Origin: an uncultured bacterium
GTDB lineage: Bacteria > Verrucomicrobiota > Verrucomicrobiia > CAIQCK01
Direction: 5' to 3'
NCBI GenBank assembly: GCA_903870275.1
Contig: CAIQCK010000034.1
Span: 1 to 64,000 of the forward strand
DNA: 64,000 bases
The position numbers were made by a program, and so were the translations under genes. This document shows, one piece after another, positions 58,408 through 62,429 of the stretch. The notes beneath the pieces are model-generated. The model saw nothing but the letters and a program-made list of their open reading frames with translations, had not been told where the DNA came from and searched no databases. The stretch's first letter is position 1. Every line of letters starts with the position of its first letter.

Positions 58408-59607
58408 ATGGACGCAGTTTTGGCACTTGAAGATGGATTGGTGTTCCGGGGCCAGGGATTTGGCGCCCGCACGTCGGCTTGCGGCGAGGCGGTATTCAAC
58501 ACCTCGATGACCGGCTACCAGGAAATCCTCACCGATCCGTCCTACAAGGGACAGATCGTGGCGATGACCTATCCGGAGATCGGCAACTACGGCGTCAACT
58601 CGCTCGACGTGGAAAGCTGGCAGCCGCATGTCGCCGGCTTTGTCATCCGGCAGCTCAGCCCGGTCGCGTCGAATTGGCGCGCGGAGTACACGCTGGACGA
58701 GTATTTGAAAAAATACAAACTGCCCGGCATTCAAGGCGTGGACACGCGCCGGCTCACCAAGCACCTGCGCACGCGCGGCGCGATGAAGGCGTTCATCTCC
58801 ACCGAGCCGGTCAGCGACGCCGACGCCATCAAGCGGGCGAACGAGTGGAAAGGCATCGTCGGCGTGGATTACGCGGTCGAGGTCACGCACAAGAAAGCGT
58901 TTCATTGGGAAGGCTACGGCCAGTGGAGCGCCAACTGGGACATCCCGCGCGGCGCCACGATAGACGAAACGCGCGCCGCCAAAGGCGAGACCGGTTTGTT
59001 CCAAGGCATGTTTGACGCGCTGCCCGCTCCGGGTTATCGCGTCGTGGCGCTCGACTACGGCATCAAATACAACATCCTGCGCCGGCTTCGGCAGCGGGGT
59101 TTCGATGTGTATGTCCTCCCTGCAACCGCAACGGCGCACGATGTGATGGCGCTGAAGCCCGACGGCGTGTTTCTCAGCAACGGCCCGGGCGATCCCGAAC
59201 CGTTGACCTATGCCCACCGCACAGTGCGGGATTTGCTGGGCGAAGTGCCCATCTTCGGCATCTGCCAGGGACAACACATTCTCTGCCACGCGTTCGGCGG
59301 GCGGACGTTCAAACTCAAGTTCGGCCATCGCGGCGCCAACCAGCCAGTGAAGGATTTGCGCACCGGCAAGGTGCTCATCACCGCGCAGAACCATGGTTTC
59401 GCCTCGGACCCGAAATCGCTGAACCCTGAGGAAGTGGAGATCACGCAGATCAACCTGAACGATCAGACCGTCGAGGGCATGCGGCATAAGAAGCACCCGG
59501 CTTTCTGTGTCCAGTATCACCCCGAAGCGTCGCCTGGCCCGCACGACGCCGGTTATCTGTTCGAGGAATTCAAGCGCCTGATCGAGCAGTATCGGCGGCA
59601 GAAGTAA
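58408..59607 (+). CDS. carA: Carbamoyl-phosphate synthase, small (glutaminase) subunit
   Basis: A 399-aa CarA. The N-terminal CPSase_sm domain (about 1-135, with FNTSMTGYQEILTDPSY) is joined to a class I glutamine amidotransferase domain. The nucleophile is C286, and His/Glu are in QYHPEASPGPHD. The nucleophile elbow reads GICQGQH where the family has GICLGHQ, i.e. the His-Gln order is swapped. Everything else, including FGHRGANQPVKD and ITAQNHGF, is canonical. It supplies ammonia for carbamoyl phosphate used by PyrB. AAAGGA overlaps the end of the DUF4230 gene. The large subunit gene (carB) is not adjacent. Confidence 0.95.
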   Translation: MDAVLALEDGLVFRGQGFGARTSACGEAVFNTSMTGYQEILTDPSYKGQIVAMTYPEIGNYGVNSLDVESWQPHVAGFVIRQLSPVASNWRAEYTLDEYLKKYKLPGIQGVDTRRLTKHLRTRGAMKAFISTEPVSDADAIKRANEWKGIVGVDYAVEVTHKKAFHWEGYGQWSANWDIPRGATIDETRAAKGETGLFQGMFDALPAPGYRVVALDYGIKYNILRRLRQRGFDVYVLPATATAHDVMALKPDGVFLSNGPGDPEPLTYAHRTVRDLLGEVPIFGICQGQHILCHAFGGRTFKLKFGHRGANQPVKDLRTGKVLITAQNHGFASDPKSLNPEEVEITQINLNDQTVEGMRHKKHPAFCVQYHPEASPGPHDAGYLFEEFKRLIEQYRRQK

Positions 59608-59694
59608 TCGCGGCTGGCAAGGCAGGGCGAGGCTTCAGAAAATCCGCGTGGCGTCCAGTGTCACGGAGCGACCCCGATGATTTGCAAATGGTCG

Positions 59695-60672
59695 TTAATT
59701 TGCCATGGCTTCCTTCAAGCACGACGGGCAAAGCGATTTCGATCCAAGAGAACCGTCAAATGGATTGAAAAACTCAGCCAATTCACTCACTGGGAACTGC
59801 CCTCCGCATCTACGACAAGGCCGCTTAAGTTCCGTTCCGCAAAGCGCGCATTTGTCGAAGTCTTTGGACCAGTCGTGCCCGTTGCTTCGTGTCTTGCCAC
59901 ACTTACTGCATTTCTCGCAATCAGACTTCCAATCGTGCCCGACGTCACGTGTCTTGCCGCACTTTTGGCAAATACAGCCATCCCAAGCGTGTGCGATGGT
60001 GTGAGCCTCATTCGATGCGCCATCGTATACAACGAAACACTTGGCTTCTCCACCTTTGAGTCCGATATGCAGAATGCGATATGTATATTTACTAGAATCC
60101 ATTATGTGGCTGCCAAAGGTTTTCATCGCTAAAGACGGCACATCTACTGAATGCATTGGTTTGGTAACCCACAAAAAACCAACTTTCCCTGTGTCTTTGT
60201 CCTGTGCCTTGAACTCCGGCAAAATATCCATCAAGAAGGCCGCCATTTGCTCGGTGCTAGGTTTGATGGGATGAGATGTGACCAATAGCACAAACCGAAT
60301 CGTGCCTTGTGGTTTACACCTACCGCATGACCCACACTTGCAGCCGCTCCATTGGTGTGCATCCATTCGCTCTGACCCGCAGCGGGTGCATTTCTCGCAA
60401 TCCTTGCTCCAATCGTGTCCCCCATCTCGCGTCTTACCACATTTCGAACACTTTTCACAATTCTTGCCCCAGTCATGCTGGTCGTTTCGGGTCTTGCCAC
60501 ACTTTGAGCATTTGCAGCCGTCCCATGTGTGAGCATCCGGTCGGGTGGTTCCGCAAACAGAGCACTCGTTGCAGTCATCGCTCCAATCATGTTGTTCGTT
60601 CCGAATCTTCCCGCACTTGGAACACTGACAGCCTTCCCAAGCGTGTATGCCAAAGGTGCATCCGATGCTCAT
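59695..60672 (-). CDS. Cys-rich tandem zinc-ribbon-repeat protein
   Basis: A 325-aa cytosolic protein with no signal. Residues about 10-118 contain six units of C-x2-C-G-x-x-R-x4-H-x-W (C17-C20 to W30, C37-C40 to W50, C55-C58 to W68, C75-C78 to W88, C95-C98 to W108, C113-C116). A central alpha/beta-like domain of about 105 residues follows (IRFVLLVTSHPIKP ... FVVYDGA), then three more units from about 235 and a last CRRCGGQF...CPSC knuckle. Repeat units of this form probably bind zinc. I do not recognise the central domain. Codon use is less GC-rich than in the neighbours, suggesting transfer. GGGAG precedes the ATG. Confidence 0.75.
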   Translation of the reverse strand: MSIGCTFGIHAWEGCQCSKCGKIRNEQHDWSDDCNECSVCGTTRPDAHTWDGCKCSKCGKTRNDQHDWGKNCEKCSKCGKTRDGGHDWSKDCEKCTRCGSERMDAHQWSGCKCGSCGRCKPQGTIRFVLLVTSHPIKPSTEQMAAFLMDILPEFKAQDKDTGKVGFLWVTKPMHSVDVPSLAMKTFGSHIMDSSKYTYRILHIGLKGGEAKCFVVYDGASNEAHTIAHAWDGCICQKCGKTRDVGHDWKSDCEKCSKCGKTRSNGHDWSKDFDKCALCGTELKRPCRRCGGQFPVSELAEFFNPFDGSLGSKSLCPSCLKEAMAN

Positions 60673-60813
60673 GATTCTTCTCCCATTTATTCATTTCTTG
60701 TTGTTTACGCGGCCAAACCAATTATCAATCACCACCTCCACTACGTCACCGTCACTTCGACTTCGGGGCTGAAGGGGCCGACGTTGGTGTCGTTGACGCC
60801 GCAGACTTTCCAT

Positions 60814-61674
60814 TTATCCTCCCACCGCGATGCTCTTCTCGTCGCTCCAGAGGCCGACTTGCTGGTCGTTGACGCGGTAGATGGCGCGGTATTTCCATTT
60901 CACGGGGGTGGTCGGCCGCGGGGTGGTGTCCACGTAGCCGGGGGTGGTGTCGAAGGCAAGGGGCACGAAGCCTTTGCTGTCGTTGCGGTCCACTTGGATT
61001 TCGATCATGTCCAGGAACGCGCTGTAGCCGCCCCAGCCCCAGTCAATGTTGACGCCGGTGGCGAGGATCGTGGGAGTAAAGTCCGGCTTGAGGGTGGTGA
61101 AGTCGGGGCCGGTTTGTTGCGCGCCGACGATGCCGATGTCGGAGCCGATGGCTTCGGTGTAGCCGCTGCTGTCCTTGATGGTCTGGACGAGGGCAAAGAT
61201 GCGGTTGAGCGCACCGGTGTTCACGGCCACGACACCGGTTGGCAGCGTTGGCGGGGTAAAGACGGGCAGCACCATGAGCGCGGAGCCGTCGCCGCTCTGC
61301 GCATCGGAGGCGGCGTCGGTGCAGGCCAGCGACCACGCGCGGGCGGCGGGGAGCCAGGACTGGAGGACATAGAGCAACCAGCGGGCGTCAGCGACGGCGG
61401 CGGTGACTTGAGAGGAGTCGAGGCCGAGGACGGTGGCGTAGCCAGCCAGTTTGTTGCGGAAGTTCTCCAACCAGATGATCTGGTCGGCGACGCGGATGGG
61501 ATAATAGACTTGCCTTCTCATTTTCTTTCCTTTCTTTGGCGGTTGATTGGTCGGTGGCGGGTTGACTGGCGGCACGTAACCGGGGTCGCCCGGCTCAAGT
61601 TGGTAGCTGGGGTCGCCCCAGCGGCTGTTCGGGTCGTCGAACTTGAACCCGGAGTCGAATTTGATGATTTTCAT
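60814..61674 (-). CDS. Hypothetical verrucomicrobial protein, two possible starts
   Basis: 286 aa from 61674, or 235 aa from an internal ATG at 61519-61521 (residue 52), which has a much stronger Shine-Dalgarno sequence (AAAGGAAAG) 4 nt upstream. The first 51 residues are Pro/Gly rich (GDPSYQLEPGDPGYVPP). From residue 52 the protein starts MRRQVYYPIRVADQIIWLENF, a helical region follows to about 120, then a beta-rich C-terminal part ending in WKYRAIYRVNDQQVGLWSDE, reminiscent of a fibronectin III-like domain. Similar proteins occur in Verrucomicrobiota and Bacteroidota but I know of no function. Its first ATG overlaps the stop of the repeat-containing ORF upstream (ATGA). Confidence 0.55.
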   Translation of the reverse strand: MKIIKFDSGFKFDDPNSRWGDPSYQLEPGDPGYVPPVNPPPTNQPPKKGKKMRRQVYYPIRVADQIIWLENFRNKLAGYATVLGLDSSQVTAAVADARWLLYVLQSWLPAARAWSLACTDAASDAQSGDGSALMVLPVFTPPTLPTGVVAVNTGALNRIFALVQTIKDSSGYTEAIGSDIGIVGAQQTGPDFTTLKPDFTPTILATGVNIDWGWGGYSAFLDMIEIQVDRNDSKGFVPLAFDTTPGYVDTTPRPTTPVKWKYRAIYRVNDQQVGLWSDEKSIAVGG

Positions 61675-62309
61675 GCATAAGTGGCGTATTTCCTATCAAT
61701 TGGGATGAATCCCCTGCGGCGGGTAATGCATCCCCCGCCGTAGGTGAGCAATCCCTCGCGGCAGGTGATGAATCCCCTGGGGTTGGTGATGCATCCCTTG
61801 GCGCAAGGGATCAATCCCTCGGCGCTGGTGATGCATCCCCCGGCATAAGGGATGAATCCCTTGAGACAGGTGATGAATCTCCCGGCGCTGGTGATGCGTC
61901 CCTTGCCGCAAGTGATCAATCTCCTGGCGCTGGAGATGAATCCCTTTTCGTCGGAGATGAATCCCCCGGCGCAGGAGATCAATCCCTTGACGCAAGGGAT
62001 GAAGCCCCGGAGGCCGGACGACCATTCCTCGCGCTGGCAGGAAAAAACCTTGGGGCGGGGGATGAATCTTCGGGAACAGAAAAGCAATCCCGCGCGTTGG
62101 CTGGTGAATCGTTCGCGTCGAGGGATGAATGCGGCGCGGCGCGGGATGCATCCCGCGAGAGGCGCTATGCGCCGGATGCCCCGAAAGCTTTCGCTGTTGC
62201 GCTGTTGCGCTGTTGCGCTGTTGCGCTGTTGCGCTGTTGCGCTGTTGCGCTGTTGCGCTGTTGCGCTGTTGCGCTGTTGCGCTGTTGCGCTGTTGTAACA
62301 GGTTATCAT
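61671..62309 (-). CDS. Repeat-encoded 212-aa ORF, possibly phase-variable
   Basis: A minus-strand frame with AGGAG 6 nt upstream of the ATG at 62309. Residues about 7-39 are octapeptide repeats NSATAQQR, encoded by thirteen 8-bp units. The rest consists of heptads of the pattern G-(F/C/L)-I-(T/P/S)-x3, encoded by twenty-two 21-bp units. The stop overlaps the ATG of the next gene (ATGA), which favours translation. Against it: no known domain, and two alternative minus-strand and plus-strand frames are also open over the 21-bp array, as expected for any stop-free repeat. A change in the number of 8-bp units would shift the frame. Confidence 0.35.
   Translation of the reverse strand: MITCYNSATAQQRNSATAQQRNSATAQQRNSATAQQRNSESFRGIRRIAPLAGCIPRRAAFIPRRERFTSQRAGLLFCSRRFIPRPKVFSCQREEWSSGLRGFIPCVKGLISCAGGFISDEKGFISSARRLITCGKGRITSAGRFITCLKGFIPYAGGCITSAEGLIPCAKGCITNPRGFITCREGLLTYGGGCITRRRGFIPIDRKYATYA
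61704..62165. repeat. Twenty-two tandem copies of a 21-bp repeat
   Basis: Units of exactly 21 bp run without a break from 61704 to 62165 (462 bp). The consensus begins GATGAATCCC and ends near GGCGCTGGT; the first 15 copies are close, the last seven more diverged. The unit is a multiple of three, so all frames give heptapeptide repeats (D-x-S-x-G-x-G in the plus frame beginning at 61704). There are no spacers, so it is not CRISPR. Confidence 0.9.
62193..62296. repeat. Thirteen tandem copies of an 8-bp repeat
   Basis: The octamer GCTGTTGC is repeated 13 times (12 perfect; the last ends in T). The unit is not a multiple of three, so slippage changes reading frame. It lies 28-131 nt past the 21-bp array and inside the 5' part of the minus-strand ORF 61671-62309. 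The array also lies 133 nt upstream of the Gfo/Idh gene at 62430. Confidence 0.92.
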
Positions 62310-62429
62310 CCTCGGCTCCTATTCCTGCTTCGGGTTTTATAGGACCAAGACGAAGGCGCGCGCAAGGACATTTTTCAATGACAGCGCGTAGCGCGAGTGC
62401 TTATGGTAGCGGAAACGAAAGGCACTGAC

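Follow-up and report, generated by a model that had tools for sequence, protein, structure and literature searches.

Repeats as possible switches and as satellites

SSR contingency loci are phase-variable genes in which repeats with units of four to eight nucleotides lie close to the start codon, as in Haemophilus and Neisseria. The locus described here shares with them a perfect non-triplet repeat beside a start codon, with a copy number that sets the reading frame (here by sequence only), and the occurrence of homologous loci in both on and off states. However, the switched ORF is here a repetitive leader without a conserved peptide that stands before a cargo gene, and it travels as the leader of a cassette in Verrucomicrobia. 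The locus lies in a window of 64,000 nucleotides, the whole stretch of DNA that was analysed (an uncultured bacterium of the Verrucomicrobiota, assembly GCA_903870275.1, contig CAIQCK010000034.1, positions 1 to 64,000).

Bacterial tandem repeats of constant 20-21 nt size and variable sequence were described by Subirana and Messeguer (PMC8161180) as having no known function; many families with unrelated sequences occur per genome, the correspondence to two turns of DNA was noted, and palindromes are not mentioned. By their unit length and diversity the 21-bp arrays of the window and of the cargo gene family belong to this satellite class, sharing the 20-21 nt unit and the many unrelated families in one genome. 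They differ in that many units contain a 12-bp palindrome, many arrays run with a stop-free sense frame into the genes of one particular family, and some are preceded by an 8-bp array. The loci link the 20-21 nt satellites to a reading frame, a slippage tract by a start codon, a gene family and a mobile block, and a role of such satellites thereby becomes testable by a simple reporter. It is proposed, with about as much confidence as doubt, that the two repeats form a translated leader that is phase-variable and to which a mobile cargo gene is coupled, i.e. the control leader of a dispersed cassette.

Anatomy of the locus

Read 5' to 3' on the minus strand, the block consists of a promoter-like TTGCGC-18-TATAAA (62336-62365), an AGGAG Shine-Dalgarno-like sequence (62316-62320), an ATG at 62309, the 8-bp array, the 21-bp array, and an ATGA overlap (61674-61671) with the following 286-aa gene (60814-61674). 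The putative promoter was read by eye and recurs in a paralogous copy on contig C43; a consensus promoter scan did not call it, and it is weak by consensus. The Shine-Dalgarno-like box, AGGAGCCGAGNATGAT, is found at three genome sites: the window locus, C43 and C7. The leader ORF (61671-62309, minus strand, 212 aa) spans both arrays. A first, sequence-only reading had described 13 units of 8 bp followed by 22 units of 21 bp within an AGGAG-preceded minus-strand ORF that runs into the ATGA overlap, and this anatomy is borne out throughout. TRF finds CGCTGTTG in 13.0 copies with 100% match at 62192-62295 (minus strand; CAACAGCG in the sense orientation), and for the 21-bp array a strict core of 14.5 copies (61704-62008) that unit stacking extends to 22 units (61698-62159, minus strand), with a consensus consisting of the palindrome GGGATTCATCMC and a 9-bp linker. 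The 21-bp array is, as that reading also held, free of stops in several frames, being open in two of the three sense frames and in one antisense frame.

The 8-bp array and the reading frame

The 7.1-Mb assembly has no 8-bp array of this kind other than that of the window. In the background, perfect 8-bp arrays of at least four copies occur once per 1.90 Mb sampled, and the sole example (L160 in G241) itself has a 21-bp array no more than about 200 nt away. Upstream of the family genes they are present in 9 of about 40 regions, a count that, like the frame counts below, is not fully independent because the loci are related. Most family members are without a perfect 8-bp array, so that the switch would be confined to part of the family; the 21-bp array, by contrast, is nearly universal in it. 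The 8-bp units of different loci, AACAGCGC, AGGAGCGC, CCCAGCGC, GGCTCCAC and GACTCCGC, appear related. Among homologous loci of the same unit copy number varies from 13 in the window to one in C43 and four in L049; it is 7 and 8 in G018 and 11 to 14 in G394, all of these being differences between paralogues rather than strains. Two of the G394 arrays are cut by contig ends, and assembled copy numbers therefore need caution. The contigs of L029, L039 and L040 likewise start inside an 8-bp array, and these three, together with L045, L046, L064 and L066, have contigs that start or stop within the gene family or the arrays, a sign of assembly-breaking repeats.

In most loci with the 5' side available the start codon is 14-21 nt 5' of the 8-bp array. 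The perfect 13 x 8 bp repeat of the window begins 14 nt past the A of the ATG, and the distance is 15 nt in L072 and 14 nt in L085. L038, L232 and L233, which are copies within one genome, have one common distance of 20-21 nt, according to which base counts as the first of the repeat; ATG and distance are kept among them while the intervening codons differ. In L061 no in-frame ATG was found near the 8-bp array.

In each of the four loci tested, one unit more or less decides whether the ORF is long or stops early, in a frame test that, like the stop test below, was designed after the data were seen. At n-1, n and n+1 units the ORF has 201, 212 and 50 codons in the window (n=13), 117, 30 and 29 in L072, 26, 127 and 155 in L085, and 58, 42 and 229 in L038; as assembled, the window and L085 are on, L072 and L038 off. 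In each of the four, one or two frames are long, crossing the 21-bp array and terminating closer to the next gene; L029, L039 and L040 have one long frame each behind the 8-bp array. The test fails in L037, where every frame is stopped between the two arrays. The leader ORF overlaps the next gene as ATGA in the window, and it ends at -13, +5 and -6 nt relative to the main ATG in L038, L040 and L057, respectively; in the remaining loci it ends 24-205 nt away.

The 21-bp arrays

A lag-21 peak is found upstream of almost every family member with enough upstream DNA. Unit sequences are mostly unrelated between loci and often palindromic, e.g. GGGATGCATCCC, GGAGACATGTCTCC, GGTATCGATACC and CGTTCCCGGGAACG. 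In the sampled genomes 21 clearly dominates among degenerate periods; G001, G003 and G241 have about 12-23 such arrays per Mb, the window genome and others fewer. CRISPR-like or guide arrays were discarded, there being no spacers, and REP elements were dropped since these are arrays of tandem 21-bp units rather than dispersed single palindromes. Intergenic 21-bp arrays, many of them palindromic, are also seen on contigs C16 of G001 and C54 and C10 of G003 (L094-L133) with no FN3 gene nearby, some of them beside distant relatives or collagen-like genes.

Most arrays carry their own 12-bp palindrome, which is significant (p<=0.05) in 24 of 49, and conservation is about 0.7 (0.73) in palindrome columns against 0.45 in the linker, with a sharp 12-bp edge. 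Such features, with a spacing of 21 bp in 460 of 489 cases and some of +/-1, a lack of codon-phase conservation and the location of many arrays away from any family gene, would suit a DNA element that is not translated, in which 12-bp dyads at a spacing of two helical turns form a ladder for a two-fold-symmetric protein, nucleoid-associated or regulatory, with the ORF incidental. This explanation is nevertheless unlikely. The consensus sequences are nearly all different (17 arrays in 0.8 Mb), which would require many specificities, strand-specific avoidance of stops is not expected of such an element, and the 8-bp array behind a start codon is left unexplained. A single DNA-binding regulator is disfavoured for the same reason, that the consensus differs from array to array.

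The palindrome arms of 4-5 bp around a centre of 2-4 nt, with a tendency to GGGA-N4-TCCC, could also form hairpins acting directly in the leader RNA, on stability or termination, independent of translation. However, G.U-type mismatches are no more frequent than those of A.C type (64 vs 54), only a few arrays show compensatory change within units and the effect is weak (1784 observed against 1736 +/- 14), and an Rfam search gave no match at the gathering threshold. Selection for RNA hairpins is unsupported by the compensatory-change and G.U-asymmetry tests, and this explanation appears highly improbable. Neutral minisatellites, born by slippage and riding without function on a selfish cassette, would account for the higher-order 42/63-bp periodicity of the arrays and for decayed copies such as C43 and L049, but not for a single fixed period over unrelated sequences, for conservation specific to the palindrome, or for stop avoidance in the sense strand only; such an origin is considered very unlikely.

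Proposed translation of the arrays

A stop-free sense frame crosses 31 of 35 family arrays, against 22.9 +/- 2.5 expected, and none of 300 column shuffles reached 31. The antisense count is 21 with 20.1 expected, and discordant loci are divided 11:1. The test covers the family arrays only, those away from the family being unoriented. Against the proposed leader stand L058, L061, L070 and L080, whose arrays are closed by stops in every sense frame, and the +/-1 spacing in some arrays. Purely non-coding arrays had been entertained because some have stops in all six frames and because of the missing codon-phase signal; the stop and frame tests have partly overturned this.

A codon-phase signal was sought in 49 arrays and found in none, with no third-position relaxation, and unit peptides are unrelated between loci. 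Since codon-level conservation is absent, the peptide appears irrelevant, and the simplest reading would be that the array is translated while the peptide itself does not matter. The sequence-only reading had held that slippage in the 8-bp array switches between different heptapeptide-repeat proteins. The switching part stands for the window, where n=12 and n=13 each open a heptapeptide frame of their own, while n=14 gives an early stop; the heptapeptides as the product do not fare as well, the codon signal being absent and two of three other loci having a single long frame. The dN/dS-like comparison of 21-bp units by frame, proposed with that reading, went against it, there being no synonymous excess in open frames (0.29, vs 0.32 in closed frames and 0.28 in antisense). 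A functional phase-variable heptapeptide-repeat protein, for which the long ORFs that span both arrays of the window locus and of L180, the two alternative long frames of the window and the sense-strand stop avoidance may be cited, is accordingly quite unlikely in view of open frames that lack these codon-level signs and of the unrelated unit peptides. The downstream gene is more likely to be the output of the putative switch than the heptapeptide itself.

A proposed leader switch

In the proposed phase-variable leader, translation would begin at the ATG just 5' of the 8-bp array, and the gain or loss of 8-bp units by slippage would select among the three reading frames. Ribosomes in the on frame would traverse the 21-bp array, whose seven-codon unit preserves the frame, and stop at or near the cargo start, so that cargo translation would be coupled and the long leader covered by translation. 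Those in the off frame would meet a stop soon past the 8-bp array, and about 0.5 kb of untranslated palindrome-rich RNA would then precede the gene and should reduce its expression. The peptide made en route is probably irrelevant, and the palindromes may matter where ribosomes are absent. Comparison of loci shows the anatomy and its recurrence, the position of the start, the effect of n on the frame, the avoidance of stops in the sense strand and the insertion; slippage in vivo, an output through coupling or polarity and a role of the palindromes are inferred.

The arrangement resembles leader-peptide control (translational coupling or attenuation), as a functional analogy only, in that an upstream ORF ends at the next start with self-complementary sequence between; it differs in that no ligand or stalling motif is seen and the toggle would be repeat number. 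The recurrence of the two-repeat leader before related genes of several Verrucomicrobia suggests an on/off switch that can be reused. A broader form, a sequence-agnostic and widespread switch in which the 8-bp array would decide ribosome passage over 21-bp palindromes, and in which passage rather than the peptide would control the mobile cargo, is possible but doubtful. In this broader form, the 20-21 nt bacterial satellites would in part be translated leader elements. If the proposal is right, Verrucomicrobia would hold many copies of a portable on/off leader, of which contig breaks at the arrays would be a sign.

The cargo gene and its family

The cargo gene (60814-61674, minus strand) encodes a short W/D/P-rich leader peptide, a helical domain and a predicted C-terminal FN3 fold. 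Pfam, NCBIfam, PADLOC and PDB sequence searches gave no significant match to the protein, and a search of viral contigs found no relative. Its AlphaFold model (mean pLDDT 79.5, pTM 0.49) consists of helices and a C-terminal beta domain, which as modelled matches fibronectin type III folds. Homologues are found at 27 loci in Verrucomicrobia. Of 388 genomes sampled from the phylum 6 have them, often in several copies, so that the distribution is patchy and multi-copy; nearly all homologues have a 21-bp array upstream. The W/D/P-rich leader, the first ~50 residues, is a separable module, since it is fused to an unrelated protein in L065 and L068. It is missing in some homologues and is split off by a stop in L057; because of these leaderless homologues and of the stop between the two parts, the main part probably has an alternative start at 61521. 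Just past the cargo stop (about 60760-60813, minus strand) is an FN3-tail-like sequence, GVNDTNVGPFSPEV, that is also present in the C43 copy and is a probable remnant of recombination between copies.

Insertion and dispersal of the cassette

In the window carA (58408-59607) and a Gfo/Idh oxidoreductase gene (from about 62430) are separated by 2.8 kb, whereas they are adjacent in the sister species G001 and G003, about 60-80 bp apart. By this comparison the whole block of two minus-strand genes and leader is inserted between them, at approximately 59617-62405, its ends being located to about 30 bp; at these ends no target-site duplication was recognised. The second gene of the block (59695-60672, minus strand), also not between carA and the oxidoreductase gene in the sister species, encodes a Cys/His-rich protein with repeated CxxCGxxR...HxW units, for which a double-zinc-ribbon match was weak and below the cutoff.

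The C43 copy, in the window genome, retains the 5' box with a single 8-bp unit; its 21-bp array is gone, as is the N-terminal part of its gene. L032 and L033, in another genome, have the 5' box, array and gene in common and diverge right past the stop codon. L180 (contig C7, 286-1668, minus strand) is a second intact cassette with the same 5' box, the 8-bp unit CAGGAGCG and a 21-bp array, and its 238-codon ORF runs into the next gene. The cargo gene of L180 is different, with a similar W/D leader, and is followed by a collagen-like gene; collagen-like genes are also found downstream of the family gene in L026, L027, L028 and L034.
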